From Actinomycetota bacterium (lineage in GTDB: Bacteria > Actinomycetota > Thermoleophilia > Gaiellales > Gaiellaceae), in the NCBI GenBank assembly GCA_004366385.1, contig SIRU01000033.1, positions 62,001 through 126,000 of the forward strand: a stretch of 64,000 nt of DNA, read 5' to 3'. Positions within the stretch are counted from its first letter, which is position 1, and every line of letters begins with the position of its first letter. Made by a program: the position numbers and the translations under genes. The notes under the pieces are model-generated. The model had not been told where the DNA came from. It did no database searches and saw only the letters and a list, made by a program, of their open reading frames with translations. Below are positions 20,091-34,439 of the stretch, piece by piece.

Positions 20091-21767
20091 ATGGTCGCGC
20101 GGCAGTCGCAGCTCTTCGTCCCGACCCTGCGCGAGGCGCCGGCGGACGCCGAGGCCGCGTCGCACAGGCTGCTCGTCCGCGGCGGCTACATCCGCCAGGT
20201 GAGCGCGGGGCTCTGGACGTTCCTCCCGCTCGGCTGGCGCGTCCACCAGAAGGTCGTGCAGGTCATCCGCGAGGAGATGAACGCGATCGGCGGCCAGGAG
20301 ATGCTGTGCCCGGTGCTCACGCCGGCGGAGCTCTGGGAGACGACCGGCCGCATCACCGTCCCGATCATCTTCCACCTGAAGGATCGAACGGGCCGCGACT
20401 TCGTGCTGCCCTTCTCGCACGAGGAGACGATGACCTTCCACGCGCGCGAGATCCGCTCGTACAAGGAGCTCCCGCAGACCTGGTACCACTTCTCGACCAA
20501 GGAGCGCGACGAGCCGCGGCCGCGCGGCGGGCTCCTCCGCGTGCGCGAGTTCATCATGAAGGACTCGTACACCTTCGACCGGGACGAGGCCGGGCTGGAC
20601 GTCAGCTTCGACCGGCACGCCGAGGCGTACGAGCGGATCTGGGAGCGCTGCGGCCTCGAGGCGTACCTGGTCGAGGCGGAGTCCGGGATCATGGGCGGGA
20701 CGGAGTCGCTCGGCTTCCTCGCACCCGGCTCGGGCGAGAACGAGCTGATGCGCTGCGAGAACGGCGACTACTTCGCCGACGTCGAGGCCGCGCGCGGCGT
20801 CCCTCGTGCGCCCGAGCTCCCGCCCCGGCTCGACGCGCCCGAGGAGATCGAGACTCCCGGCGTGACGACGATCGAGGCGCTCGCGGAGCTCCTCGCGATC
20901 GATCCGGCGGCGACGTCGAAGGCGATGCCGGTGGTCGTCGGCGACCGTCTCGTGCTGGCGCTCGTCCGCGGCGACGACCGCCTCAGCGAGGAGAAGCTGA
21001 TGACGCTGTTCGAGTCGGCGTTTCGCCCCGCCACGGACGAGGAGATCCGCGAGACCTTCGGCGCCGACGGCGGCTCGATCGGCCCGCTCGGCGTCTCGGT
21101 CGAAGTGGTCGCGGACGAGGCGCTGCGGGAGGGGCAGTTCGTGGCCGGCGCGAACCGCGACGGGTGGCACGTCCGCGGCGTCGAGGCCGGGCGCGACTAC
21201 GAGCCGCGCTTCGCGGACATCCGCCAGGCGGTCGCGGGCGACGCCTGCCCGGAGTGCGGAGGCCGGCTCAGCGTGCAGCCGGCGATCGAGGTCGGCCACA
21301 TCTTCAAGCTCGGCACCTTCCACTCCCAGGCGTTCGACGCGACGTACCTCGACGAGGACGGCACGGAGAAGGTGATCGTGATGGGGAGCTACGGCATCGG
21401 CCCCGCGCGCACGATGGCCGCGATCGTCGAGCAGCACTCGGACGAGAACGGGATCCTGTGGCCGAAGGAGGTCGCGCCCTACGACGTGCACGTGCTCTCC
21501 CTGGACGCCGGCTCTGAGGAGATCCTCGGGTGCGCGGAGGAGGTCGCGAACGTGCTCGTCGAGGCAGGTCTCGACGTCCTCCTCGACGACCGCGACGAGC
21601 GCCCGGGAGAGAAGTTCGCGGACGCGGACCTCGTCGGCGCGCCCGTCCGGATCATCGTCGGCCGCAAGACGCTCGAGGACGACTCGGTCGACGCTCGGAC
21701 GCGTGACGGGGCCGTCGACCAGCGCGTGGCGGTGACCGACGTGCTGAAATGGGTCACGGACCGCTGA
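20091..21767 (+). CDS. proS: Prolyl-tRNA synthetase, bacterial type with editing domain
   Basis: A 558-residue class II synthetase. Motif 1 region LWTFLPLGWRVHQKV, motif 2 FRDEP-type (here STKERDEPRPRGGLLRVREF) and motif 3 VMGSYGIGPARTMAA are present. The inserted YbaK-like editing domain (residues about 235-400, containing TSKAMPVVVGDRLVLALVRGD) marks the bacterial form that clears Ala-tRNA-Pro. The C-terminal anticodon-binding domain ends DVLKWVTDR. The ATG at 20091 begins MVARQSQLFVPTLREAP, the normal N-terminus. Its stop overlaps the next ATG by one base. Confidence 0.96.
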   Translation: MVARQSQLFVPTLREAPADAEAASHRLLVRGGYIRQVSAGLWTFLPLGWRVHQKVVQVIREEMNAIGGQEMLCPVLTPAELWETTGRITVPIIFHLKDRTGRDFVLPFSHEETMTFHAREIRSYKELPQTWYHFSTKERDEPRPRGGLLRVREFIMKDSYTFDRDEAGLDVSFDRHAEAYERIWERCGLEAYLVEAESGIMGGTESLGFLAPGSGENELMRCENGDYFADVEAARGVPRAPELPPRLDAPEEIETPGVTTIEALAELLAIDPAATSKAMPVVVGDRLVLALVRGDDRLSEEKLMTLFESAFRPATDEEIRETFGADGGSIGPLGVSVEVVADEALREGQFVAGANRDGWHVRGVEAGRDYEPRFADIRQAVAGDACPECGGRLSVQPAIEVGHIFKLGTFHSQAFDATYLDEDGTEKVIVMGSYGIGPARTMAAIVEQHSDENGILWPKEVAPYDVHVLSLDAGSEEILGCAEEVANVLVEAGLDVLLDDRDERPGEKFADADLVGAPVRIIVGRKTLEDDSVDARTRDGAVDQRVAVTDVLKWVTDR

Positions 21768-22063
21768 TGCCGAAACGCCGGAGATACAGCAGCGAGGGGT
21801 TCGGGCCGACGATCGAGCGGCTCATGGCGGAGACGGGAACGACGTACAGAGGCCTCGCCGAGAAGGCGAGCCTGAGCGCCGGCTATCTCAACCACATCGT
21901 CCACGGGAACCGGCCGGTGCCCTCGAACGACGTCATCGCGCGAATCGCGGCCGCGCTCGACGTCGAGCCGGAGCACTTCCGCGAGTTCCGGATCCGCGTG
22001 ATCACCGAGAAGCTCGAGCAGATGCCCGAGCTGATCGACCGGCTCTACAAGCGCCTCGCGTGA
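21767..22063 (+). CDS. Small XRE-family DNA-binding protein
   Basis: A 98-residue protein with one helix-turn-helix of the Cro/C1 type: GTTYRGLAEKASLSAGYLNHIVHGNRPVP with NDVIARIAAALDVEPEHF after it. A basic N-terminus (PKRRRYSS) precedes it. The ATG shares one base with the proS stop (TGATG), so it is translationally coupled to proS. The C-terminal helix could dimerise. The target is unknown. Confidence 0.85.
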   Translation: MPKRRRYSSEGFGPTIERLMAETGTTYRGLAEKASLSAGYLNHIVHGNRPVPSNDVIARIAAALDVEPEHFREFRIRVITEKLEQMPELIDRLYKRLA

Positions 22064-22098: not shown

Positions 22099-22142
22099 CG
22101 GCGGTGAGGCCGCCGCCCTTCCCGATCCCGTCGCCGACGGAC

Positions 22143-22167
22143 AACTTCGCGGTCTCTGACGCGTACT
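22143..22167 (+). promoter_or_regulatory. Candidate ECF-type promoter of sigma gene 1
   Basis: AACTTCG (22143-22149) with CGTACT (22162-22167). The AAC lies 34 nt before the GTG at 22177. The same spacing and a similar AACCTTTG occur before sigma gene 2 (25449) and, at 31 nt, before sigma gene 3 (27213). Autoregulation is inferred. Confidence 0.4.
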
Positions 22168-22176
22168 AGAGAGCAG

Positions 22177-22719
22177 GTGCGCCGGCGTCCCGACACCGAG
22201 CTCGTCGTCCTCGCCCGCGAGGGGTCGCGGGAGGCGGTCGAGGTCCTGTTCGACCGCTACTGGGCGCACGCCTGGCGAGCGGCCTTCGCGGTCACGGGCG
22301 ACCGCGGCCTCGCGGACGACGCGGCACAGGAGGCGATCGAGCGCGCGTTCGGCGCGCTGCACCGCTTCGACGAGACGCGGCCGTTCGCGCCGTGGCTCAA
22401 GCGGATCGCCGTCAACCGCGCGATCGACCACCTCCGGCGCGGCCGCCGCGCCGACGTCCTCGCGGGGGACGAGGCCGTCTACCACGCGTGGGAGCTCGGC
22501 GAGTCCGCCGAGGACGACCTCCGGCTCTGGGCGGTGGCGGACGCCGTGGCGTCCCTCGGCGAGGCGAAGCGCGTCGTGATCGTGCTCCACTACTGGCTCG
22601 ATCTGCCGCTCGAGGAGGTCGCGGGCGTCCTCGGCATCCCGGTGGGCACGGTCGCCTCCAGGCTCGGGCGCGCGAAGGCCGAGCTGCGCGCGCTCCTCGA
22701 GGAGGACCGTGTCGCCTGA
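22177..22719 (+). CDS. ECF RNA polymerase sigma factor, array member 1
   Basis: A 180-residue ECF sigma factor. Region 2: EVLFDRYWAHAWRAAFAVTG, ADDAAQEAIERAFGALHRF, then PWLKRIAVNRAIDHLRRGRR. Region 4: LHYWLDLPLEEVAGVLGIP and GTVASRLGRAKAELRALL, an HTH. It has no regions 1 or 3. It directs RNA polymerase to a regulon, usually envelope stress. It overlaps the following membrane-protein gene by 11 nt, the arrangement of sigma/anti-sigma pairs. The GTG at 22177 lies within a short AGAGAGCAG leader. Confidence 0.93.
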   Translation: MRRRPDTELVVLAREGSREAVEVLFDRYWAHAWRAAFAVTGDRGLADDAAQEAIERAFGALHRFDETRPFAPWLKRIAVNRAIDHLRRGRRADVLAGDEAVYHAWELGESAEDDLRLWAVADAVASLGEAKRVVIVLHYWLDLPLEEVAGVLGIPVGTVASRLGRAKAELRALLEEDRVA

Positions 22720-23428
22720 CCTCGAGCGAGAGCTCCGCGACGCGCGCGAGCTGCTGCCCGAGCCCGACGCGGCCGCGACCCGGCTCGCGCGCGAGCGCGC
22801 GCTCGCGGCCGCGCGTACACGTCGACGCCGGCTGCCGCCCGCGCTCGCGCTCGCAGCGTCGCTGCTCGTCGCCGTCGTCGCCGGGATCACGATCGGCGCC
22901 TCGACGCCTCAGAGCGTGACCGCGGGTCGCGGGCCGCTCGGGCTCGGGTTCCTTCCGCTCCCCGGCTGGTACACGCTCCACGCGCCCGGCGTCGCGCGAC
23001 AGGGAACGCAGTTCGCATCCCTGGCGGCCAACGTGCCGTTTCACGCGACGGACGACCTGAACGGGCTCGCGAGCCCGTCGGGACTCCCGTACGCGACACT
23101 CCTGGAGCTCCCTCGCGACGGCGTCGTCCTCGTGGCGATCGTTACGGAACGTTACGAGGGCGAGCTCCCGCCGCCCGCCGGGCTGGAACAGCAGCTCCCG
23201 CTCCGCCTCAGCGCGGCGGAGGAGTTCATCCCCTTCAGCACGCAAGTCCGGCCCAAGCGTCCGCTCGGTCAGGCGCACCTCTCCGCGCACGTCGGGCGCT
23301 ACGACCTCACGGTGAACGCGTACTTCGGCACGCCCACGCCGTCGTCGGAGCTGCTCGCCGAAGCGCAGCGCCAGCTCGACGGGCTCGTGGTCAGGCCGGG
23401 CCTCCGCCTGCCAGAGGCCGGGCGGTGA
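22709..23428 (+). CDS. Single-pass membrane protein, putative sigma partner, array member 1
   Basis: A 239-residue protein: a charged cytoplasmic N-terminus (MSPDLERELRDARELL), a membrane helix at about residues 43-63, then an extracytoplasmic domain starting LGLGFLPLPGW (about 77-87) and continuing through LAANVPFHATDDLNGLA, LPRDGVVLVAIV and an ending with AEAQRQLDGLVVRPGL. The same domain heads the larger proteins at 26019 and 27822. No classic zinc anti-sigma motif is visible; the anti-sigma role is inferred from operon position and topology. Unlike its paralogues it stops before the C-terminal Ig-like domain, which is here encoded separately downstream. Confidence 0.75.
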   Translation: MSPDLERELRDARELLPEPDAAATRLARERALAAARTRRRRLPPALALAASLLVAVVAGITIGASTPQSVTAGRGPLGLGFLPLPGWYTLHAPGVARQGTQFASLAANVPFHATDDLNGLASPSGLPYATLLELPRDGVVLVAIVTERYEGELPPPAGLEQQLPLRLSAAEEFIPFSTQVRPKRPLGQAHLSAHVGRYDLTVNAYFGTPTPSSELLAEAQRQLDGLVVRPGLRLPEAGR

Positions 23429-24081
23429 GGCGGATGCTCCGTTTCGCTGCGTCGCTGAGCGCGGTCGCGGGCCTGCTCGTGGCGCCCTCCCCTGGCGCAC
23501 CCGCCCAGAGCGTGACGATGAGCTTCACGCGCTTCTACGACAACGCCTGCCGCTGCTACAAGGCCCGCGTCTCGGGTCAGGTGTCGAGCGGCCGCGCCGG
23601 CGAGTACGTCGTCGTCCTCCGGCAGTACTGCGGCCTCTCCTTCGGGACGTCGGTCGCGGGCGCCACGACGCGCGACGGCGGCTTCTGGGAGACCGAGCTC
23701 CCGGTCGTCTCCCGGCCGGACGCGCTCGTGAGCGAGACGTACCGCGCCCGGTGGAACGGGAACCTGAGTGCGCCGGTGAGGTTCCGCGGGAGACTCTCAG
23801 TCACCGGGTTCCGGCTGCAGGACGGACGCCAGCGGGTGACGGTCAAGACGCCCGACGTCAACCCCGTGAAGCTGACCGGACGGGCGATCGTCGTCCAGCG
23901 GCAGCAGGGCGCGTCGTGGGCGAAGGTCGCGAGCGCGCGCCTCGCGGCGCACCCGAAGGTCTACTACACGTTCATCGCGAACGCTCCCGTCCAGCGTCGC
24001 GGCCGACTCCGCGCCGTCGTGCCCGCGGCGAGCGCGGCGCCCTGCTTCGTCACGAGCGTCTCCAAGCCGTGGACGTCGTAG
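23425..24081 (+). CDS. Secreted cysteine-containing beta-domain protein, copy 1
   Basis: A 218-residue exported protein with a signal peptide (about residues 1-28). The mature region starts SVTMSFTRFYDNACRCYKAR, then has SSGRAGEYVVVLRQYCG, GATTRDGGFWETEL, and a second half ending AVVPAASAAPCFVTSV. The second half matches the C-terminal domain of the membrane proteins at 26019 and 27822 (RAVLPxxxARPCYL). It overlaps the previous gene by 4 nt (GTGA). Function unknown. It shares 109 bp of perfect DNA identity with the next gene. Confidence 0.75.
   Translation: MRRMLRFAASLSAVAGLLVAPSPGAPAQSVTMSFTRFYDNACRCYKARVSGQVSSGRAGEYVVVLRQYCGLSFGTSVAGATTRDGGFWETELPVVSRPDALVSETYRARWNGNLSAPVRFRGRLSVTGFRLQDGRQRVTVKTPDVNPVKLTGRAIVVQRQQGASWAKVASARLAAHPKVYYTFIANAPVQRRGRLRAVVPAASAAPCFVTSVSKPWTS
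23507..23615 (+). repeat. 109-bp perfect duplication, left copy
   Basis: Identical to 24169-24277 over 109 bp. A further 47-bp perfect block (23651-23697 with 24313-24359) keeps the same 662-bp offset, while flanking codons differ at synonymous and non-synonymous sites. It covers the mature N-terminal cysteine motif. Confidence 0.9.
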
Positions 24082-24746
24082 CGCTGCGCGCAGCCGGTCT
24101 GACGCTCGCCCTGCTCGGCGCGGCGATCGTCATGGCACTCCCTGGCGCGGCCGAGTCGGCGTCGAGCGAGAGCGTGACGATGAGCTTCACGCGCTTCTAC
24201 GACAACGCCTGCCGCTGCTACAAGGCCCGCGTCTCGGGTCAGGTGTCGAGCGGCCGCGCCGGCGAGTACGTCGTCGTGCTCCGGCAGTACTGCCCGCTCA
24301 AGTTCGGCACGGCGGTCGCGGGCGCCACGACGCGCGACGGCGGCTTCTGGGAGACCGAGATCTCGCCGGTCGCGGCGCCGGAGCTCCCTGCGAGCGAGAC
24401 CTACCGGGCGCGCTGGGAGGGGCGGGTGAGCTCACCGGTGACGCTTCGCCGCAAGCTCCTCGTCCAGGGCTGGCGGGCACGGGGCACGACGCAGCGCATC
24501 ACCGTTTACGCGGGCGGCACGAACCCGGTCGACCTCCGCCGCCGGACGGTCGTGCTCCAGCGCCGCTCCGCCGGCGGCTGGACGCGTGTCGCGAGCGGGC
24601 ACCTGACGCCGGACCCGAGCCTCCCGAACGGCTTCCTCGCGCTCCTGAAGGCGCCGCGCCGCGGCCTGACGGTGCGGGCGCTCGTGCCCGCGAAGAGCGC
24701 TGCGCCGTGCTTCCCGGCCAGCCCGTCGGCGACCTGGACGTCGTAA
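24069..24746 (+). CDS. Secreted cysteine-containing beta-domain protein, copy 2
   Basis: A 225-residue paralogue of the gene at 23425. A signal peptide (LTLALLGAAIVMALPGAAES) is followed by the same SVTMSFTRFYDNACRCYKAR start, GEYVVVLRQYC, GATTRDGGFWETEI and a C-terminal RALVPAKSAAPCFPASP. The GTG at 24069 overlaps the end of copy 1 by 13 nt and gives a sensible signal peptide. The N-terminal half of the mature protein is nearly identical to copy 1 and the C-terminal half is diverged, a pattern that suggests gene conversion or strong constraint on that half. Confidence 0.75.
   Translation: MDVVALRAAGLTLALLGAAIVMALPGAAESASSESVTMSFTRFYDNACRCYKARVSGQVSSGRAGEYVVVLRQYCPLKFGTAVAGATTRDGGFWETEISPVAAPELPASETYRARWEGRVSSPVTLRRKLLVQGWRARGTTQRITVYAGGTNPVDLRRRTVVLQRRSAGGWTRVASGHLTPDPSLPNGFLALLKAPRRGLTVRALVPAKSAAPCFPASPSATWTS
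24169..24277 (+). repeat. 109-bp perfect duplication, right copy
   Basis: See the left copy at 23507-23615. Identity ends at a single C/G difference and resumes for 15 bp. Confidence 0.9.
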
Positions 24747-25380
24747 CGCGCGGAGCGGTGCCGCTTGCGCTCGCCACGAACGCGGCCGGCTTCGTCGCCC
24801 ACTCGGCGGCGGCCGGGCTGCGGCAGTCGGTCACCATCCGCGCGTCGCAGACGACCGTCCCGGCGACGCACGCGATCCTCCTCTCCGGCCCGGTGCCGGG
24901 CAGCCGTGCGAACGAGGACGTGACGATCGAGGTCAGGGACTGCGGCCAGCCGTCGTTCCGCGGCGTCGTCGCGCTGCAGACGGAGCCCGGCGGCGCATGG
25001 TCGACCGAGTACTACCCGGGCATCTCCACCCTCGTCCGCGCGCGCTGGAACGACGTGACGAGCGCGCCGGTCGCGCTCCGGCAGGTGCCGCGCGTCATGC
25101 TGAAGCGGCTCGTGAACGGGAGCTTCGAGATCGCGATCTCGGCCAAGGTGCCGTTCTGGCGGAAGAAGGCCGTCTTCCAGCAGCGGATCTCCGGCACCTG
25201 GAGGCGCGTACGGAGCGTCGTCCTCGCGAAGCAGAGTGCGGTCGGCAGCGCAGGATGGCGTGGACGTCAGGGACGTTCCGCGCCCGCGTGCTGCGAGGAC
25301 GCCAGGTGCGCGCCGTCCTCCCGGCGGCCTCTGCACGGCCCTGCTACCTCGCCGGCATCTCGAACGTCCCGCGCGCGTGA
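24707..25380 (+). pseudogene. Frameshifted third copy of the secreted beta-domain gene
   Basis: The frame from 24707 encodes the same type of domain (VTIEVRDCGQPSFRG, STLVRARWNDVTSAPV, VPFWRKKAVFQQR) but runs out of homology near 25250. The missing C-terminus (VRAVLPAASARPCYLAGISN) continues in a different frame and stops at 25380. Aligned to the intact protein at 27822, the break falls in the variable segment before the TFRARVLRGRQVRAV strand. One lost base (or two gained) explains it. The start is uncertain (GTG 24707, CTG 24734 or GTG 24758). A sequencing error or programmed shift cannot be excluded. Confidence 0.7.
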
Positions 25381-25448
25381 GTCCGCGCCTGCCGGCCTTG
25401 GCCACGGCGACGACCTGACAGAGAGGTCGGATCTTCGTCCCTCAAGGG

Positions 25449-25473
25449 AACCTTTGCGTCCCGAGGCGCGACC
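25449..25473 (+). promoter_or_regulatory. Candidate ECF-type promoter of sigma gene 2
   Basis: AACCTTTG (25449-25456), its first base 34 nt before the ATG at 25483, with CGCGACC about 11 nt further on. The same 8-mer occurs before sigma gene 3 at 27213. Confidence 0.4.
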
Positions 25474-25482
25474 ATTGACCGG

Positions 25483-26022
25483 ATGGCGGTTCCGGAGCCA
25501 GTGGCGGAAGAGCGCCCTGCGCGACCCGCGCACGAGCACGACGAGGCCGACCTCGTGCGCCGCGCGCAGCTCGGCAGCGTCGCCGCGTTCGAGGAGCTCG
25601 TCCTGGCGCGCGGGCCGCAGCTGCACCGGTTCCTCGTCGTCCGGCTCCGGATCGAGGCGGACGCGCCGGACGCGCTCCAGGAGACGCTCACGGCCGCTTG
25701 GCAGGACCTGCCGCGCCTGCGTGAGCCGAGCCGCTTCTGGCCCTGGTTGATCGGGATCGCGGCGCACAAGGCCGCCGATGTCGCGCGCCGGCGGTCGCCG
25801 GCGAGCGTCGCGGAGCCGCGACCGAGCGCGACCGACGACGGCACGCTCGAACTGCGGCAAGCGCTCGCGGCGCTGCCCGACCGCCAGCGCGAGGTGCTGC
25901 TCCTGCGGTACGTCGTCGGGCTCTCCGAGGAGGAGGTGGCCGAGGCGCTCGGGATCCGCGTCGGCACGGTGAAGTCGAGGAGCGCCCGCGCGCGCGAGGC
26001 GCTCAGGGAGGCGTTGAGATGA
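25483..26022 (+). CDS. ECF RNA polymerase sigma factor, array member 2
   Basis: A 179-residue ECF sigma factor. Region 2: AAFEELVLARGPQLHRFLVV, APDALQETLTAAWQDLPRL, FWPWLIGIAAHKAADVARRR. Region 4: LPDRQREVLLLRYVVGLSEE and VAEALGIRVGTVKSRSARAR. Overlaps the next gene by 4 nt (ATGA). It is about as distant from members 1 and 3 as general ECF sigma factors are from each other, so the array did not arise by very recent duplication of the sigma genes. Confidence 0.93.
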   Translation: MAVPEPVAEERPARPAHEHDEADLVRRAQLGSVAAFEELVLARGPQLHRFLVVRLRIEADAPDALQETLTAAWQDLPRLREPSRFWPWLIGIAAHKAADVARRRSPASVAEPRPSATDDGTLELRQALAALPDRQREVLLLRYVVGLSEEEVAEALGIRVGTVKSRSARAREALREALR

Positions 26023-27209
26023 GCAGGGACCTCGAGCAGGAGCTGCAGCGGCTCGGAGACGCGGGGGAAACGCCCTCCGAGCAGGAGCTGAGACGGATGG
26101 CCCGCGAGGCGGCGTCGGAGTCGAGGTCTCTGGGTCCCGCGCGCGGCCCTCGACGCCGATGGGCGGGAGTCGCGGCCGTCGCCGCCGCGCTGCTGGCCGC
26201 GAGCGCGCTTGGGGTCGCGCTCGGAAGCTCGCTCACCCCGGCCGGCAGCGCGAGCATGCCCGCGCGCGGGCTCGGCTTCCTGCCCGCTCCCGGCTGGACG
26301 ATCGTGCAGGGCGAGACGTTCGACGTGCCGGGCGCGACGAGCGCGACCGCGGCAAACGTGCCCCTGCACCCGGCCGACCGGCCGAACGCCCTCCCGGCGA
26401 GGACGATCGCGACGCTTCCGGCGCGTGGCGTGGTCATCCACGTCACGTTCGAGGCTCGCGGCGACCCGGCGAGGGACGTCGCCTTCGTCCGGCAATCGCT
26501 GCCGCTCCAGGTCGAGGACGCGCGGCCGGCCTCCCCGTCGGAGCATCGCCTGCGCGCGGCGGTCGGCGGCTTCAACGTCGACGCACGCATCCACTACGGT
26601 CGTCCGACTCCGACCGCCGCGATGGTCGACTCCGCGCAGCGGCAGCTGAGCCGGCTCACGGTGGCGGCCGAGCGCGTCACGCTCCGGGCCTACCCGACGA
26701 TCCTCACGAGCGGCCCGGTCACTCTCTCCGGAACGATCGACAAGCCGGTTGCAGGGGAGGTAGTCGACATCCAGGCGAAGGATTGCGGCGCTCAGTTCTT
26801 CCGGGGCCTGGCCGGCACGACAACGAAAGGCGGCGGGAGCTTCTCGACGACCATACACCCGCAGATCTCGACGACGCTCCGCGCGCTCTGGGATGGGAAC
26901 GCGAGCGCCCCGGTCACCGTCTGGCAACGTGCCTCCGTATACCTCAGGACGGGCACCCGCGGGCGCCTGTACGTGACGGCGTGGGGCGCGGAGGCGCAGG
27001 TCTTCTGGCGCAAGAAGATTCAGATCCAGCAGCGGAAGGCCGGCCAGTGGAAAACCGTCCATACCGTCCCCCTTACGATGGAGGGCAACCTGGGACGGAC
27101 CTACTTCAGACTCCCCGTACCCAGAGGCACGCTGCTCCGGGCCGTGCTTCCGCGCTCACAGACGAAACCGTGCTTCCTCCAGGGAGTCAGCCCCGTTCTG
27201 CGAACGTGA
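26019..27209 (+). CDS. Single-pass membrane protein with two extracytoplasmic domains, array member 2
   Basis: A 396-residue protein. Cytoplasmic N-terminus MSRDLEQELQRLG (compare MSPDLERELRDAR in member 1), membrane helix about 48-69, first external domain from GLGFLPAPGW (84-93) to SAQRQLSRLTVAAERV, then a second Ig-like beta domain (about 225-396) with VVDIQAKDCG, RALWDGNASAPV, FWRKKIQIQQRKAGQW and a final RAVLPRSQTKPCFLQGV. The two cysteines (near 255 and the C-terminus) are conserved in all paralogues and may form a disulfide. Putative anti-sigma or sigma-regulating receptor by position; no catalytic motif is visible. Confidence 0.75.
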   Translation: MSRDLEQELQRLGDAGETPSEQELRRMAREAASESRSLGPARGPRRRWAGVAAVAAALLAASALGVALGSSLTPAGSASMPARGLGFLPAPGWTIVQGETFDVPGATSATAANVPLHPADRPNALPARTIATLPARGVVIHVTFEARGDPARDVAFVRQSLPLQVEDARPASPSEHRLRAAVGGFNVDARIHYGRPTPTAAMVDSAQRQLSRLTVAAERVTLRAYPTILTSGPVTLSGTIDKPVAGEVVDIQAKDCGAQFFRGLAGTTTKGGGSFSTTIHPQISTTLRALWDGNASAPVTVWQRASVYLRTGTRGRLYVTAWGAEAQVFWRKKIQIQQRKAGQWKTVHTVPLTMEGNLGRTYFRLPVPRGTLLRAVLPRSQTKPCFLQGVSPVLRT

Positions 27210-27212
27210 CCC

Positions 27213-27237
27213 AACCTTTGGGCCCGCCGCGTGCTCT
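27213..27237 (+). promoter_or_regulatory. Candidate ECF-type promoter of sigma gene 3
   Basis: AACCTTTG (27213-27220), identical to the motif before sigma gene 2, and CGTGCTC (27230-27236), similar to CGTACT before sigma gene 1. It lies 31 nt before the GTG at 27244. Confidence 0.4.
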
Positions 27238-27243
27238 TATGGA

Positions 27244-27822
27244 GTGACCGTGGAGCACGACGCCGTCCTGACGCAGCTTGCCCGCCGGGCCCTCGACGGC
27301 GACCGCGCCTCGCTCGGAGCCCTCCTCCGAGAGCTCGAGCCGACGATCGTCCGCGCGACCAGGCTGATCGTCGGCTCTGGCTCGTGGGCGGCCGAGGACG
27401 CCGCGCAGGACGCGCTGCTCGACGTCGCCCGTGGCATCGGAGGCCTCCGCGACCCGGAGGCGGCGAGGGCATGGGCGCTCAGGATCGCGACGACGCGGGC
27501 GCTGAAGGTCGCGCGGCGCGAGCGCATGCTCTCGCTCCGCAAGGCGCCGTTCGACGACGTGCCCGTCGTCGCCGAGGCGCCGGACGGGCGCAGCCGGGCG
27601 CTGAAGGAGGCGTTCGACCGCCTGCCGCCGGCGCTGCGGACGACCGCCGTCCTCCGGCTGTACGTGGGCCTCAGCGAGCAGGAGACCGCCGAGGCGGTCG
27701 GGTGCTCGCTCGGCACGGTCAAGTCCAACCTGCACGACGCTCGCAAGCGGCTGGCGAAGGCGCTGGCCGAGCGGGGATACGCCCCCGCCGTGTCGTCCAC
27801 ACCGATGGAGGAGATCGCCTGA
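27244..27822 (+). CDS. ECF RNA polymerase sigma factor, array member 3
   Basis: A 192-residue ECF sigma factor. Region 2: LGALLRELEPTIVRATRLIV, AAEDAAQDALLDVARGIGGL, ARAWALRIATTRALKVARRE. Region 4: LPPALRTTAVLRLYVGLSEQ, TAEAVGCSLGTVKSNLHDAR. GTG at 27244 (or 27250). Its stop shares a base with the next ATG (TGATG), so the pair is translationally coupled. Confidence 0.93.
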   Translation: MTVEHDAVLTQLARRALDGDRASLGALLRELEPTIVRATRLIVGSGSWAAEDAAQDALLDVARGIGGLRDPEAARAWALRIATTRALKVARRERMLSLRKAPFDDVPVVAEAPDGRSRALKEAFDRLPPALRTTAVLRLYVGLSEQETAEAVGCSLGTVKSNLHDARKRLAKALAERGYAPAVSSTPMEEIA

Positions 27823-29072
27823 TGCCCGCCGACAACGAATCGCTGGTCGACCTCGATGAGATCGTCTCGCTGCTCCAGCAGTACGAAGGGCCCCCGCAGG
27901 CGCGGGAGCGGGAGCGCGGCGACGCGCGCCGCCGGGTCTCCGTCCGCCCGCGCATGCTGAGGCTGCGCTGGGGCCTCGTGGGCGCGGCGACCGCGCTCCT
28001 CGTGGGCAGTGGGCTCGGCTTCGGGGTCGCGAGCTCGGTCACCCCGAGCGGCACCGCGGGGACGCCGTTCGCGGGCTTCGGGTTCCTGCCCGTCCGCGGC
28101 TGGACGGTCGTGCAGAGCGGGACGCTCGGGCCGACCGGCGCCGCGTCGGCGATCGCCGCCACCGTCCCGCTCCACCCGGGCGACCGGCTCGGCGCCGTCC
28201 CGGTGCGAACGCTCGAGTCGATGGGCCTGAACGGCGTCGTGATCCGCGCGACGTTCACGACGCGCGGCGACCCGGGCGAGGACTTCAAGTTCCAGCAGCG
28301 GCAGCTGCCGCTCCGCATGGCGGACGCGACCCCCGTCCCGGCGAGCGACCCTGCGCTCTCCGACGGGCTGTCGGAGTACCGCGTCGCGGCCGGCGTCCGG
28401 GGTCACAACGTCGACGCGCGGATCTACTTCGGCCGCGGGGAGCCGACCACGGCGATGATCGCGAACGCCGAGCGCCAGCTGGCGCGGCTCGTGGTCGCCG
28501 CGGAGCGGGTCACGATCTTCGCGCGGCCGACGACGGTCGGGTGGTCGCCCGTCGGCGGCCCCGGCACGACGCTGTACGGCTCCATCGACAGCAGCCGCGC
28601 CGGGGAGACCGTCGACATCCAGGCCAAGGACTGCGGGCAGCAGTTCTTCCGCGGGGTCGCGGGAGCGACGACGCGGGGCGGAGGGGAGTGGACGACCGAG
28701 TACACGCCCGGGATCACGACCACGCTGCGGGCGGTCTGGGACGGGCACTCGAGCGCTCCCGTCGTCGTCCGCTCGTACGCCGGCGTCGCGATCCGCCGCG
28801 CCGGGAAGAGCTACGAGGTCGGGATCACGGCGCGAGCGCAGTTCTGGCGGCGCAAGGTCGTCATCCAGCAGCGCCGCGGCAGCTCGTGGAAGAAGGTGCG
28901 CGAGGTGTTGCTGACCGAGCAGGGCTCGACGACCGGCTGGGCATACGTGTACACCCTCGGCACGTTCAAGCTCCCAGGCCTGAAGAAGGGGACGCTGATC
29001 CGCGCCGTGCTTCCGGCCGCGGCCGCCCGCCCGTGCTACCTCCAGAGCGTGAGCGCGCCGTTCCGGGTGTGA
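27822..29072 (+). CDS. Single-pass membrane protein with two extracytoplasmic domains, array member 3
   Basis: A 416-residue paralogue of the 26019 product. Cytoplasmic N-terminus MPADNESLVDLDEIVSLLQQ, membrane helix about 50-70, first domain from GFGFLPVRGW (85-94) through ATVPLHPGDRLGAVPVRTLE to NAERQLARLVVAAERV, second domain with VDIQAKDCGQQFFRGVAGA, RAVWDGHSSAPV, FWRRKVVIQQRRGSSWKKV and RAVLPAAAARPCYLQSV. Conserved patches across the array suggest a shared ligand-binding or sensing fold. A partner or anti-sigma role is inferred from coupling to the sigma gene. Confidence 0.75.
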   Translation: MPADNESLVDLDEIVSLLQQYEGPPQARERERGDARRRVSVRPRMLRLRWGLVGAATALLVGSGLGFGVASSVTPSGTAGTPFAGFGFLPVRGWTVVQSGTLGPTGAASAIAATVPLHPGDRLGAVPVRTLESMGLNGVVIRATFTTRGDPGEDFKFQQRQLPLRMADATPVPASDPALSDGLSEYRVAAGVRGHNVDARIYFGRGEPTTAMIANAERQLARLVVAAERVTIFARPTTVGWSPVGGPGTTLYGSIDSSRAGETVDIQAKDCGQQFFRGVAGATTRGGGEWTTEYTPGITTTLRAVWDGHSSAPVVVRSYAGVAIRRAGKSYEVGITARAQFWRRKVVIQQRRGSSWKKVREVLLTEQGSTTGWAYVYTLGTFKLPGLKKGTLIRAVLPAAAARPCYLQSVSAPFRV

Positions 29073-29147
29073 CACGTCGGGATACCCCGCGAGCAGGCCG
29101 GCCGTAGTACGGGCATGAGGACGAATCGACGACCAGAAGGAGCATGA

Positions 29148-30173
29148 ATGAGCTCGACCGACGAACGGACCCTCGAACGAGCCCAGGAGGCGGCGGCGCG
29201 CTACGTCGCGAACGTCGAGACCGTGATCAAGGGCAAGACCGACCAGGTCAAGCTCGTGCTCGCCACCCTGCTGTGCGGCGGCCACGTGCTGCTCGAGGAC
29301 GTGCCCGGGACCGCCAAGACCGTGCTCGCGCGGGCGATCGCCGGGACGATCGAAGGCGCGACGAACCAGCGCGTGCAGTGCACGCCCGACCTCCAGCCGA
29401 CCGACGTCACCGGGCTCTCCGTCTTCAACCAGCGCGACCGCGACTTCGAGTTCCGGCCCGGGCCGGTGTTCGCGAACGTCCTCCTGGTCGACGAGATCAA
29501 CCGCGCGATGCCGAAGACGCAGTCCGCGCTGCTCGAGGCGATGGCGGAGCGGCAGGTGACGACCGACGGCGTCACGCGCCCGCTTCCCGACCCGTTCCTC
29601 GTGCTCGCGACCGAGAACCCGATCGAGCAGGAGGGCACGTTCCCGCTCCCCGAGGCGCAGCTCGACCGCTTCTTCCTGCGAACCGCGCTCGGCTACCCGG
29701 GCGAGGACGACGAGCTCGCGATCGTCGAGGAGCAGCTCCGCGAGCACCCGCTCGACCGGCTGCGGCCCGTCGTCTCGCTGGAGGACGTGGCCATGCTCCG
29801 GCACGCGGTGCAGGACGTCTACGTCGACCCCGTGCTGCGGCGCTGGACGATCCGGCTCGTGCGCGCAACGCGCGAGGCCGAGGGAGTCGCCATCGGCGCG
29901 TCCGTCCGCGGCAGCCTCGCGCTCGAGCGCGCCGCCCGCGCATGGGCGCTCCTCGACGGCCGTGAGTACGTCACGCCCGTCGACGTCGAGGAGCTGTTCC
30001 TGCCGGTGGTCATGCACCGGATCGTGTTCACGCCCAGCTTCGTCGCCACGGCCCGCGAGATCGGGTGGACGGCCGCGGCCGAGCGCTTCCGCGAGGCCTG
30101 CCTCGCGATCGCGCCGCGCCCCGGCGTCGAGCTCGAGGCGGTCGCGGCTGCGGAGGCCGCTGCGTCGTGGTGA
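29148..30173 (+). CDS. MoxR-family AAA+ ATPase
   Basis: A 341-residue MoxR ATPase. Walker A is DVPGTAKTVLA, Walker B VLLVDEINRAMPKTQ, sensor 1 LATENPIEQEGTFPLPEAQL, and the C-terminal lid has GASVRGSLALERAARAWALL. MoxR proteins act as chaperone-like ATPases with VWA partners. It is the first gene of a six-gene run with DUF58 and VWA proteins. The ATG at 29148 follows AGAAGGAG. A TAGTAC box (29105-29110) may be its -10 element. Confidence 0.93.
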   Translation: MSSTDERTLERAQEAAARYVANVETVIKGKTDQVKLVLATLLCGGHVLLEDVPGTAKTVLARAIAGTIEGATNQRVQCTPDLQPTDVTGLSVFNQRDRDFEFRPGPVFANVLLVDEINRAMPKTQSALLEAMAERQVTTDGVTRPLPDPFLVLATENPIEQEGTFPLPEAQLDRFFLRTALGYPGEDDELAIVEEQLREHPLDRLRPVVSLEDVAMLRHAVQDVYVDPVLRRWTIRLVRATREAEGVAIGASVRGSLALERAARAWALLDGREYVTPVDVEELFLPVVMHRIVFTPSFVATAREIGWTAAAERFREACLAIAPRPGVELEAVAAAEAAASW

Positions 30174-30186
30174 GCTCGACGACCGC

Positions 30187-31086
30187 GTGACCGCCATCTT
30201 CCCGCTCATCCCGCGCCGCCGCGTGCTCGGCCTCCCGTTCGGGGGGCTGCACAGCATGCGCCGGGGGCTCGGCTCCGACGTCGCCGGCTCGCGCCCGTAC
30301 CAGCCGGGCGACGACGTCGACAAGATCGACTGGGCCGCCTCCGCGAGGCTCTCCCTCGCGCGCGGGACAGACGAGTTCGTCGTCCGCGAGCACTACGCGG
30401 AGGAGGCGCCGCGCGTCGTCGTCCTCTGTGACCGGCGGCCCTCGATGTCGATCTTCGACAACGGCTGGCCGTGGCTCTCGAAACCGGAGGCGATCCGGCA
30501 GGCGGCGACGGTGATCGGCGACAGTGCGGTCGCGGCGCGAGGCCTCCTCGGCTACCTCGACGAAGGGGACGGCACGCGCTACTGGCACCCGCCGCGCGGC
30601 ACGCACCAGCTCGGGCCGATCGACCTCGAGCGCCCGTTCCAGGCCTCCTCGGGAACGCTCGCGCGCGGTCTCGGCTACCTCGTCGAGCAGCGCCGCGACC
30701 TCCCGGCCGGCACGTTCGTCTTCGTCCTCTCCGACTTCCTCGAGCAGCCGTCGCGCGACGAGTGGCTGCACGTGCTGGAGCGCCGCTGGGAGATCGTCCC
30801 GGTCGTCATCCAGGACCCGACCTGGGAGCAGAGCTTCCCGGAGGTGGGGGGGACGGTCGTGCCCTTCGCCGACCCGGAGACCGGGCGCGTCTCCCTCGTC
30901 CGCTTCTCGGAAGCGGAGGTCGCGGCACGGCGCGAGGCGAACCAGCGGCGGCTCACGGAGCTCCTCCGCGGGCTGCGCGCGCTCGACCTCGATCCCGTCG
31001 TCGTCTCCTCGCACGAGTGGCGTGACGTCGTCGACTCCTTCCTGACCTGGGCCGACCAGCGGGTCTTCACGCGGGGGCGCGCATGA
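30187..31086 (+). CDS. DUF58 domain protein of the MoxR operon
   Basis: A 299-residue DUF58 protein. The hallmark segment is SRPYQPGDDVDKIDWAASAR, followed by a VWA-like region (VVVLCDRRPSMSIF, FVFVLSDFLEQPS). It is soluble, and a partner of MoxR in relatives. The GTG at 30187 is the first start after the moxR stop in this frame. It overlaps the next gene by 4 nt (ATGA). Confidence 0.87.
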   Translation: MTAIFPLIPRRRVLGLPFGGLHSMRRGLGSDVAGSRPYQPGDDVDKIDWAASARLSLARGTDEFVVREHYAEEAPRVVVLCDRRPSMSIFDNGWPWLSKPEAIRQAATVIGDSAVAARGLLGYLDEGDGTRYWHPPRGTHQLGPIDLERPFQASSGTLARGLGYLVEQRRDLPAGTFVFVLSDFLEQPSRDEWLHVLERRWEIVPVVIQDPTWEQSFPEVGGTVVPFADPETGRVSLVRFSEAEVAARREANQRRLTELLRGLRALDLDPVVVSSHEWRDVVDSFLTWADQRVFTRGRA

Positions 31087-32021
31087 GGGGCCTGCTCCTC
31101 ACGGCGACCGCCGCAGCGGCCCTCGTCGCCGCCGGCTGCGGCAGCGGGGAGGACGCGACGGTGCTCCAGGAGGGGAAGCCGGTCGCCACGAGCCGCTCGC
31201 TCACGCCGCTCGTGCACCTCTTCGGCGACCCGGTGGTCGCGCGCGTCGACCTCCTCGTCGACACCGAGCAGTTCGACCCGGACGGCATCCGCCTCGTGCC
31301 GAACCTCGACCCGTTCGAGCTCGAGGGGGAGCCGAGCCGCGTCACGCGGAAGCTCGGCCGCTACGCGCACATCCGCTGGGAGCTCACGTACCGCTGCGTC
31401 GTCTACGAGTGCCTCCAGGAGGTCGGGGGCGGGCCGCCGCAGATGCTGCCGGGAGGCATCCCGCCGCCGAACACCGGCCAGGGCGGGTTCGCCGACCGCA
31501 AGTCGTTCCGGATCAAGGCCGCGCGCGTCATGTACGACGCGCCGGGGACGACGCAGCCGAAGCTGGTCACGCAGATCACGTGGCCGTCGATCCAGAACGC
31601 GTCGCGCCTGAACATGAGCGACACGAACGTGACCGGCATCGGCTACCCGTTCGAGGCTTCGGTCACCCCGCTGCCGGTGGCAACGACTCGCTCTCCGCTC
31701 GCCGTCGCGGGCGGGCTCGCGCTCGCGGCGCTCGCGCTGCTCGCTCTCCCCGCCGCACTCGTGATCCGCGCGCTTCGCCGCCGCGAGCCGCCGCCGCCGG
31801 AGCCGGAGCCCGAGCTCACGCCGCTCGAGCGGGCGCTCCGGCTCGTCGCGTGGTCGCGCGAGCGCCCGGACGGCGAGCGGCGCCAGGCGCTCGAACTGCT
31901 CGCGCACGAGCTGGACGGCGACGGGCGCGCCCTCGACGCCCGCAGGCTCGCGTGGTCGCCGTCGACGCCGGCGCCGGAGGAGATGGACGAGCTCGTCGAG
32001 TCCGTGCAGGAGCCCTCGTGA
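31083..32021 (+). CDS. Lipoprotein with C-terminal membrane helix, BatD-like position
   Basis: A 312-residue protein of unknown family. A lipobox-like N-terminus (LLLTATAAAALVAAGCG, Cys at about 20) is followed by an extracytoplasmic beta-rich domain (VHLFGDPVVARVDLLVDTEQ; TYRCVVYECLQ), a membrane helix at about 208-232, and a cytoplasmic tail starting RALRRREPPPPEPEPE with an ERALRLVAWSRERP helix. This topology (surface domain, helix, cytosolic tail) and the place in the operon resemble BatD-type proteins. No direct motif proves it. Confidence 0.68.
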   Translation: MRGLLLTATAAAALVAAGCGSGEDATVLQEGKPVATSRSLTPLVHLFGDPVVARVDLLVDTEQFDPDGIRLVPNLDPFELEGEPSRVTRKLGRYAHIRWELTYRCVVYECLQEVGGGPPQMLPGGIPPPNTGQGGFADRKSFRIKAARVMYDAPGTTQPKLVTQITWPSIQNASRLNMSDTNVTGIGYPFEASVTPLPVATTRSPLAVAGGLALAALALLALPAALVIRALRRREPPPPEPEPELTPLERALRLVAWSRERPDGERRQALELLAHELDGDGRALDARRLAWSPSTPAPEEMDELVESVQEPS

Positions 32022-32830
32022 CCTCGTTCGAGCTGCGGCCCGCCATCCCGTCGAGCGAGAGCGGCCGGCTCCGGGCCGTCGCCCGGCGGACGCTCGTCCT
32101 GCGCGCCGCGCTCGCCGTCGCGCTCGTCGCGTCCCTCGCCCTCGCCTTCCTCGTGGCGCACTCGCAGGACGTCCGCCGCGCGCCGCTCGTCCCCGCGGGC
32201 ACGACGGGGATGCTCGTGCTCGACCTCTCGGCGAGCGTCTACGAGGGCGCGCTCGACCAGACGGTCGCGAAGCTGTCCGGCACCGACGAGCGCACCGGGC
32301 TCGTCGTCTTCTCGGACGCCGCCTACGAGCTCTTGCCTCCCGGATCGCCGTCACGCGAGCTCTCGTCGCTCCTGCGGTTCTTCAAGACCGGCCCGCTGGG
32401 GACGCTCCCGCCGAACCCGTGGGAGCCGTTCCGTGCCGGGACGCGCATCTCCACGGGGCTCGTGACCGCCCGTCGGGCGCTCCTGCGGGAGAAGGTCACC
32501 AACGGCTCGATCGTGCTCGTCAGCGACCTGGAGATCCTCGCGGACGAGGTCGGCCGCACGGCCGAGACCATCGCCCAGATCAAGGCGGACGGCTACGAGG
32601 TGCGGATCGTGCCGCTGTTCCCGTCCGCGGAGAAGCGCGCGCTCGTCGAGCAGCTCCTCGGCGGGAGCGCGTTCCTGGGGGAGCCGGAGGAGGAGAACGT
32701 CACGCGGACGCCCGGGGAGCGGAGCTTCACCGGCGTGCTGCCGTGGCTCTTCCTGCTCACGGCGGCGGTCGTGGTCGCGCTCCTCGCCGCGAACGAGCGC
32801 CTGCTCGCGAGGCTGGAGGTGCGGCCGTGA
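32018..32830 (+). CDS. Membrane-anchored von Willebrand factor A protein 1
   Basis: A 270-residue protein with an N-terminal membrane helix (about 26-46), a VWA domain with metal-ion site DLSASVYEG (DxSxS), GLVVFSDAAYELLPPG, IVLVSDLEIL, and a second membrane helix near the C-terminus (VLPWLFLLTAAVVVALLAA). It belongs to the Bat-type VWA proteins that work with MoxR at the membrane. The GTG at 32018 overlaps the upstream stop. Confidence 0.85.
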   Translation: MTSFELRPAIPSSESGRLRAVARRTLVLRAALAVALVASLALAFLVAHSQDVRRAPLVPAGTTGMLVLDLSASVYEGALDQTVAKLSGTDERTGLVVFSDAAYELLPPGSPSRELSSLLRFFKTGPLGTLPPNPWEPFRAGTRISTGLVTARRALLREKVTNGSIVLVSDLEILADEVGRTAETIAQIKADGYEVRIVPLFPSAEKRALVEQLLGGSAFLGEPEEENVTRTPGERSFTGVLPWLFLLTAAVVVALLAANERLLARLEVRP

Positions 32831-33477
32831 GCGGCCGCGCGCTCCGCGCCGGGAGCCGGATCGGCGTCTGGGCGCTCGCCGCGCTCGCGACGGTGGCGGC
32901 GCTCGCGCTGCTCGTCGTCGCCGCGGACGTGCTCGCCTCCCGCGACGGCGTGAAGGTCGACGACGCCCGCTTCCAGTCCGCACCGCAGCGCCAGGCCGGC
33001 CTGTGGGAGGTCGGACGCCTGCCGGACGACCTGACCGAGCGGCTGCTCGGCCTCGAGGACGACGTCGACTTCCGCAAGCTGGCCGCCCTGTACGTGCGCG
33101 TCGAGCCCGGGAAGACCGACTACCGCGGGTTCCCCGAGCTGGAGGCGATGCGCGCGAAGCTGCAGTTCGAGCTGACGCGCGCGAGCCGCACCGACCCCGA
33201 CCTCGAGCGCCGGTCGCGGCTGCTCACCATGTACGGGGTCACCACGCTCGACTTCCCGACGAACCTGAGCGACGAGGAGCGCGGCCAGATCCTCTCGAAC
33301 GCGGCCTCCGCGTTCCGGAACGCGATCACGTTCGACCCGGCGAACGAGGACGCGAAGCGGAACCTCGAGACCGTGCTCCGCGTCTTCGGGCCTGTGGGGC
33401 TCTCGGGCACCGGGCCGACCGGCGGGAAGTCGGAGGGGAACGTCTCGGGCCAGGGCGTCACCGGCAGCGGGTACTGA
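32827..33477 (+). CDS. Membrane-anchored TPR-like protein of the MoxR operon
   Basis: A 216-residue protein with one N-terminal membrane helix (about 13-35). Its external part contains helical stretches typical of a partial TPR (LSNAASAFRNAITFDPANED, AKRNLETVLRVF) and ends in a Gly/Ser/Thr-rich tail. BatB/BatC-like accessory genes with TPRs are common between VWA genes in this operon type. Function unknown. Both ends overlap neighbours (GTGA, TGATG). Confidence 0.7.
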   Translation: MSGRALRAGSRIGVWALAALATVAALALLVVAADVLASRDGVKVDDARFQSAPQRQAGLWEVGRLPDDLTERLLGLEDDVDFRKLAALYVRVEPGKTDYRGFPELEAMRAKLQFELTRASRTDPDLERRSRLLTMYGVTTLDFPTNLSDEERGQILSNAASAFRNAITFDPANEDAKRNLETVLRVFGPVGLSGTGPTGGKSEGNVSGQGVTGSGY

Positions 33478-34439
33478 TGGAGATCAGCTTCCTGACGCCG
33501 CTCGGCGCGGTCTTCGCCCTGGCGGCGCTCGTCCCGATCTCCGTGTTCCTCGCGCGGGAGCGGCGGGCGTCGCGCCAGCGCGCGCACCTCGGTCTCCGGG
33601 AGCCGTCCCCGCGCTCACGTGTGTCGCTGGCGGCGGCTCTCGCCGCGGTCTGCGGCCTCCTCGCGCTGGCCGCGGCGCAGCCGGTGGTGGCGACGAGCCG
33701 CACGCTCGACGCGCGAACCGACGCCGAGGTCTTCGTCGTCCTCGACACCTCGCGCTCGATGCTCGCCTCCGCCGGCCCGGGCGCCCCGACACGGTTCGAC
33801 CGGGGGCGGACGCTGATCGACCAGCTCTCCGCCGGTCTGCCCGAGCTGCCGGTCGGCGTGGCGTCGCTGACCGACCGCGTCCTGCCGCACCTGTTCCCGA
33901 CCACCGACCGCCGGGTCCTGTCCGCCACGCTCGAGAAGACGCTGAGCGTGGAGTCGCCCGGCCCGAGCTCGTTCTTCGCCGTCCGCGCCACGACGTTCGA
34001 CGCCCTCGCAGTCGTGCCGCGGCTCGCGTACTTCAAGCCGAACACCGAGAAGCGCGTCCTCGTCGTCGTCACCGACGGGGAGTCGCGCCCGCTCGTGGAG
34101 GACCTCGCGGGCGCGTTCGACATGGAGCCGACGATCGACGTGATCTTCGTCCGGCTCTGGGACGCTGCGGAGCGCATCTACGTCACCGGTGCCGCCGAGG
34201 TCGGCTACGAGCCCGACGAGGAGAGCGAGGCGATGGTCGCCGAGCTCGCATCGCTCCTCGGCGCGCAGGTCGTCGAGGAGGGTGAGGCGGCGACGCTCCC
34301 GCAGACGGTCGCGCGGCTCTTCGGCGACGGTCCCACCGTCGAGCGTGAGCACGAGGGGCGCCGCCGCGCGCTCATGCCGTGGATCACGCTCGCCGCCGTC
34401 TTCCCGCTCGGCTTCGTCCTCGTCCGACGCAATCTCTGA
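33477..34439 (+). CDS. Membrane-anchored von Willebrand factor A protein 2 (BatA-like)
   Basis: A 320-residue protein: membrane helices at about 9-26 and 50-70, a VWA domain with VFVVLDTSRSMLAS (MIDAS DxSxS), VLVVVTDGESRPLVEDL, IDVIFVRLWD, and a C-terminal helix (MPWITLAAVFPLGFVLV). This is the BatA arrangement. It is the last gene of the run; a tRNA-Pro gene follows after 24 nt with no clear terminator. Confidence 0.86.
   Translation: MEISFLTPLGAVFALAALVPISVFLARERRASRQRAHLGLREPSPRSRVSLAAALAAVCGLLALAAAQPVVATSRTLDARTDAEVFVVLDTSRSMLASAGPGAPTRFDRGRTLIDQLSAGLPELPVGVASLTDRVLPHLFPTTDRRVLSATLEKTLSVESPGPSSFFAVRATTFDALAVVPRLAYFKPNTEKRVLVVVTDGESRPLVEDLAGAFDMEPTIDVIFVRLWDAAERIYVTGAAEVGYEPDEESEAMVAELASLLGAQVVEEGEAATLPQTVARLFGDGPTVEREHEGRRRALMPWITLAAVFPLGFVLVRRNL

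Follow-up and report, generated by a model that had tools for sequence, protein, structure and literature searches.

Organisation of the locus

The 64,000-nucleotide window analysed here (contig SIRU01000033.1, positions 62,001 to 126,000) comes from a 2.73 Mb, 63-contig genome of an uncultured member of the Gaiellaceae, within the class Thermoleophilia, that we call G000. Between proS and moxR it hosts three modules, all on the forward strand, each of which joins an extracytoplasmic function (ECF) sigma factor gene to the gene of a membrane protein, here termed its partner. The modules run sigma1-M1-S1-S2 with a broken S3, then sigma2-M2, then sigma3-M3. Our comparative analyses support an anti-sigma role for the partners.

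The sigma genes (sigma1, 22177..22719; sigma2, 25483..26022; sigma3, 27244..27822) encode proteins of 179-192 residues, and all three match Pfam Sigma70_r2 and r4_2 above the cut-offs. Having regions 2 and 4 only, within roughly 170-200 residues, they are ECF factors, in agreement with an earlier note made from the sequence alone. That note also saw each sigma gene overlapping or touching the gene of a single-pass membrane protein, and this holds for M1 (22709..23428), M2 (26019..27209) and M3 (27822..29072), whose first 11, 4 and 1 bases, respectively, also belong to the sigma gene ahead. The stop of M1 is overlapped in turn by S1 (23425..24081), and that of S1 by S2 (24069..24746). Translation of the overlapping sigma, partner, S1 and S2 genes is therefore probably coupled.

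M1 consists of a cytoplasmic start, one helix and an ectodomain. M2 and M3 carry in addition a C-terminal domain that we call TAIL-A; in M2 the ectodomain spans residues 84-215 and TAIL-A residues 220-396. S1, which aligns with the M2 and M3 tails, and S2, which aligns with TAIL-A copies, are free secreted TAIL-A proteins. The earlier note counted three separate secreted proteins after M1; S1 and S2 are indeed intact, but S3 (about 24758..25380, forward strand) is a disrupted TAIL-A gene whose match is split over two frames. Because the frame changes near 25252 and there is no convincing signal peptide, S3 appears to be either a decaying gene (a pseudogene) or an assembly error.

A cytoplasmic segment conserved behind ECF sigma factors

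The cytoplasmic parts of M1-M3 measure about 36-48 residues. Structure models predict, with low to moderate confidence, that this start forms two helices, at residues 3-14 and 21-36 of M2 (AlphaFold2; segment at 26019..26126, forward strand) and at residues 3-15 and 21-33 of the M1 of a related genome, G033. No HxxxCxxC zinc motif, the mark of the zinc-binding subset of class I anti-sigma domains, nor any cysteine, is found in the cytoplasmic parts of M1-M3. A class I anti-sigma domain of the RseA, RsiW or RskA type was rejected, the segment being too short (~36-48 residues, where such domains have about 100 and are recognisable by profile) and having no Pfam or NCBIfam match above cut-off. 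An RsgI anti-sigma-I domain was set aside as well; Pfam and NCBIfam give no RsgI match, and the sigma factors are of ECF type.

A profile of the partner start and helix was searched over 299 genomes of the class. At E <= 1e-5, leaving out the training set, 15 independent strong matches have a readable locus (L084-L098), and in all 15 an ECF sigma gene comes immediately before the segment. They follow, with variation, the consensus M-S-x-E-L-E-x-x-L-x(7)-P-x-P-x(4)-T-x-x-A-R-x-x-A-L. The exteriors behind this segment are exchangeable: most strong matches carry a PD40/TolB-like propeller, and L098 and L147 (genome G141) an immunoglobulin (Ig)-like pair alone. The gene at L089:1498-2868 (G122), behind an ECF sigma gene, combines the segment with an MreC barrel. 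Weaker matches whose alignment is limited to the helix seem to be chance similarities. A search of 396 genomes of the phylum found almost nothing beyond the class, with only L115 (G349) resembling a true pair; nearly all of the other N-terminal matches outside the class were dismissed as chance similarity to a membrane helix.

The earlier note recognised no anti-sigma motif in the partners. No described family is matched, as it said, but the partners do share a conserved short segment that is distributed as an anti-sigma domain would be. This segment makes a strong candidate for a minimal anti-sigma domain of a new kind, class-II-like in its two short predicted helices.

Searches with the ectodomain also recovered the pairing that the note proposed to look for in other Thermoleophilia. 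Seven further genomes (G033, G277, G302, G311, G310, G281 and G123) have similar sigma-partner pairs, and the pairing therefore exceeds chance; an eighth, G306, has a partner at a contig end. Among contigs of named genomes, a search with M2 found no loci and one with an M1-type alignment (A6) found four, in metagenome-assembled genomes of Thermoleophilia or Actinomycetota. Sigma1 is 73-77% identical to its orthologues in G033 and G302, and sigma2 and sigma3 are 67% and 70% identical to theirs in G277. In a sigma factor tree sigma1 belongs to a single clade whose 22 members have such partners; sigma2 and sigma3 form separate deep lineages, each joining its own G277 orthologue.

Different histories on the two sides of the membrane

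A comparison of G000 with G277 separates the two sides of the partners. For the sigma factors, orthologues are 67-70% identical and paralogues 32-37%; for the cytoplasmic segments the values are about 50% and 22-27%. The exteriors behave differently. Ectodomain orthologues are 56% identical, against 57% between M2 and M3 within G000 and 71% within G277, and tail orthologues 47-49%, against 54% and, in G277, 68%. Informative residues that group orthologues or within-genome copies split 45:1 for sigma, 2:6 for the ectodomain and 1:13 for the tail (for the tail, two-sided binomial P ~0.002); for the cytoplasmic segment, given its shortness and gaps, such a count is uninformative.

The cytoplasmic start thus tracks its sigma factor by descent, which the exteriors do not, and two sigma systems within one genome carry matching exteriors. 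The likeness within genomes would be explained by gene conversion or by exteriors having been replaced independently. On this evidence two different sigma factors appear to be kept on one outside input.

The exterior domains

M1-M3 share one helix and a domain opening G(L/F)GFLP-x2-GW, as the earlier note described, and in this domain the identity to M2 is 39-49%. Its further observation of a C-terminal beta domain with a conserved cysteine pair is confirmed for TAIL-A, where the pair is invariant in eight aligned copies. Likewise, it could name no family for these domains, and M1-M3 have no match in Pfam, NCBIfam or a PDB sequence comparison; sequence and profile comparisons of the partners with solved structures gave nothing relevant.

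The AlphaFold2 model of M2 (mean predicted local distance difference test score, pLDDT, 80.7) consists, in order, of the two N-terminal helices, the membrane helix, an alpha/beta ectodomain (pLDDT mostly >85) and two beta domains that make up the tail. In a Foldseek comparison of this model with the PDB, TAIL-A matched 46 chains at E <= 0.001, mostly pairs of Ig or fibronectin type III domains, with TM-scores that are low because the whole M2 protein was compared. From this structural match TAIL-A is predicted to be an Ig-like tandem domain. The tail in a model of the G033 partner was too poor for use. As a secreted Ig-like pair TAIL-A is common, occurring in 53 of 103 genomes of the family.

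The best 50 structural matches of the ectodomain include Tsi3, LpqN, SciW, EagT6 and PknH, all with E >0.2, which we take to be Mog1/PsbP-like. As no Mog1/PsbP-like match is significant, a PsbP-like fold is a lead only. Nor is the ectodomain specific to sigma partners; the family also has it, sometimes in several copies, in secreted proteins and lipoproteins that stand alone, with no sigma gene. One locus (L018:1294-3150) encodes a secreted lipoprotein with several apparent copies, and no sigma gene was found within 1.5 kb of it.

Free and tethered copies of the tails

Free secreted genes beside a tethered version recur with a second tail family. The sigma1-type partners of G033, G277, G302 and G306 carry TAIL-B, which has four invariant cysteines; a common origin with TAIL-A was considered and discarded, since profile comparison shows no relation. 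Free secreted TAIL-B genes follow the partner in G033 (one), G277 (one), G302 (at least one) and G306 (three), and at a contig end of G311 there is a partial copy, oppositely oriented. G141 has a free TAIL-A gene behind a partner whose exterior is TAIL-A only. In G199, within another ECF lineage, a free copy lies behind a TAIL-B-like partner, from which the start of the copy seems to derive. The free secreted versions beside partners lack the cytoplasmic segment. TAIL-B is found in 8 of the 103 family genomes, of which 6 have these modules. The partners of G310, G281 and G123 are tail-less, and no free tail was found alongside them. At L154:878-1812, in G310, a cytoplasmic segment and TAIL-B share one stretch in different frames, possibly a broken partner gene.

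The earlier note read the locus as a paralogous sensing system with linked free and tethered domains. Both the sensing idea and this link are supported, since the layout recurs in other genomes and with an unrelated tail family.

Matching exteriors and free copies might also arise by local duplication or gene conversion among adjacent repeats, with no shared ligand, an explanation compatible with an anti-sigma role but, as a full account, one that we find doubtful. S1 and S2 are 84% identical in DNA across 290 nt (23507-23796 and 24169-24458), which suggests a recent duplication or conversion confined to their first halves, the tethered and free TAIL-B copies of G306 form one clade, and adjacent paralogues convert easily. 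Against this, exchange halts at the membrane side, leaving the sigma factors and cytoplasmic segments unaffected, and the free-plus-tethered layout is kept with two unrelated tail families and in another ECF lineage. Past the 290-nt stretch S1 and S2 diverge sharply. At L071:128-3226, in G306, the tethered TAIL-B gene and its three free counterparts stand in tandem.

It is rather unlikely that the free tail proteins are themselves the ligand, binding the tethered tail and holding the sensor in one state so that what the circuit counts is the product it exports. The same domain does recur in the same operon in several genomes, and pairing among Ig-like domains is frequent. However, M1 of G000 is tail-less though two free tails follow it, and the tail-less partners of G310, G281 and G123 have no free tail that we could find beside them.

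Promoter-like sites and neighbouring genes

Promoter-like footprints of ECF type precede each sigma gene. Upstream of sigma1 lies GGACAAC-N16-CGTACTA (22139..22168, forward strand), which aligns at equal spacing with GGATAACTTC..CGTACTAG before its G033 orthologue; the form common to the two genomes is GGAYAACTTC...CGTACTAG. Sigma2 is preceded by GGAACCTTT-N13-CGAC (25447..25472, forward strand) and sigma3 by CCAACCTTT-N16-CTTA (27211..27239, forward strand), each with its spacing conserved in G277 and each the sole exact match in the genome. The regulon searches in G000 were pattern matches. The sigma1-type pattern has two exact matches in the genome, the one before sigma1 and a second, GGATACC-N16-CGTAGTA (29080..29109, forward strand), in front of moxR; these are suggestive only, as both sites had a part in fitting the pattern.

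The gene moxR (29148..30173, forward strand) encodes a MoxR-type AAA+ ATPase and is the first of a moxR/DUF58/VWA-like cluster, possibly a regulated target of sigma1. It also directly follows the last module gene in G033 and G277, with 83% identity; the closest moxR of G009, a genome of the same genus, adjoins ATP synthase genes. The region directly downstream of the modules (29080-34439) holds moxR, DUF58, lipoprotein and VWA-like genes, the later ones judged from sequence. No conserved synteny was found upstream of the modules, and moxR is the only recurring neighbour. A small helix-turn-helix gene lies between proS and sigma1 (21749-22063), with no counterpart found close to the modules of G033 and G277.

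RseP, suggested earlier as a possible protease for the partners, is a real M50/PDZ protease. A link to the modules was rejected all the same: it sits in the order dxr-rseP-ispG-proS, and because these neighbours are housekeeping genes its closeness is no evidence of one.

A proposed mechanism

We think it probable that the modules constitute a new modular anti-sigma system, class-II-like, in which an ECF sigma factor is held by its partner, the sensors are exchangeable and homologous to the operon's own products, and the operons are self-induced. We infer that each sigma factor would be bound, and thereby restrained, at the membrane by its partner, whose first 35-45 residues, a short helix pair, would serve as a minimal anti-sigma domain acting in the manner of CnrY. 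One helix would span the membrane, and the exterior would be the PsbP-like domain, alone or followed by a tail. A change outside, by ligand binding or cleavage, could then free the sigma factor, perhaps through proteolysis, to transcribe its own operon from the ECF-type promoter; sigma1 would probably transcribe the moxR cluster as well. The induced operon would also yield secreted copies of a sensor tail, which might be the surface product that the sensor reports on, or rival binders of the ligand that close a feedback loop. Competition of this kind between free and tethered copies is one of the possibilities that the earlier note had raised.

This arrangement suggests that what the cell senses are proteins of its own surface, or a target that these have in common. 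A more specific version can be put forward only tentatively: the circuit may gauge its own exported proteins, the anti-sigma factor displaying a tethered copy of the operon's secreted domain, with concerted evolution keeping the exteriors alike and the cytoplasmic ends distinct, so that one signal drives several promoters.

Several observations weigh against an anti-sigma system of this kind. Its presence is sporadic, and no module is present in G009, whose genome is one contig of 2.6 Mb. The segment has no match above cut-off to any anti-sigma family in Pfam or NCBIfam, a profile built from 15 segments retrieves no anti-sigma chain from the PDB, and the two-helix prediction in M2 has a pLDDT of only ~56-79. 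The matching exteriors on two sigma systems rest on two genomes only, G000 and G277, and the free copies could be plain tandem duplication with no regulatory role.

It is improbable that the partners are instead the first target genes of their sigma factors, surface proteins co-expressed through translation with them and bearing the segment as a topogenic stub: their operon position fits, as do the secreted proteins and lipoproteins that have the ectodomain and no nearby sigma gene, but the segment is conserved across the class where the exterior is not and tracks the sigma factor by descent, a topogenic stub would require just positive charge, and the neighbouring free secreted versions do without the segment.

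If the partners are anti-sigma factors, the unnamed, class-wide short segment gains a likely function as a minimal anti-sigma domain. Sensors swapped on a fixed cytoplasmic end would provide a natural experiment on the persistence of sigma/anti-sigma specificity under changing inputs. The pairing of free and tethered copies, with two unrelated tail families, points to own-surface-protein sensing in a large and mostly uncultured class.

Comparison with known systems

We found no description of this sigma-partner system in the open-access literature. The NCBIfam models CU044_5270 (NF038083) and 'antisigma' (NF052375) overlap weakly with the cytoplasmic start and helix of the partners, which score 9-15 bits against a curated cut-off of 100. 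We propose that the partners work like the CnrY or RsgI systems, by analogy and with no claim of membership in either.

CnrY is anchored in the membrane. Its cytoplasmic domain is very short and has two helices, of which helix 1 binds sigma4 and helix 2 sigma2 (PMC7406223, PMC8103513). The partners resemble CnrY/CnrH, of class II, in being putative membrane-anchored regulators of ECF factors with a short (<~50 residues) two-helix cytoplasmic domain, the helices being predicted in their case. They differ in exterior and phylum, and have no detectable sequence relation to CnrY, nor to NepR.

RsiV/SigV, to our knowledge, has no free copies of the sensor domain alongside. It pairs an ECF factor with a membrane anti-sigma factor, the exterior of RsiV binding an extracellular protein, lysozyme, directly (PMC4183432, PMC5014341), although its domains differ from those of M1-M3. 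With SigI/RsgI, usually self-regulated in cellulolytic clostridia (PMC6056542), the modules would share self-regulation; SigI differs in structure from ECF factors, and the partners have no RsgI match. RsgI sensors bear polysaccharide-related modules, whereas tails of the G000 type are instead duplicated as free secreted genes within the locus.

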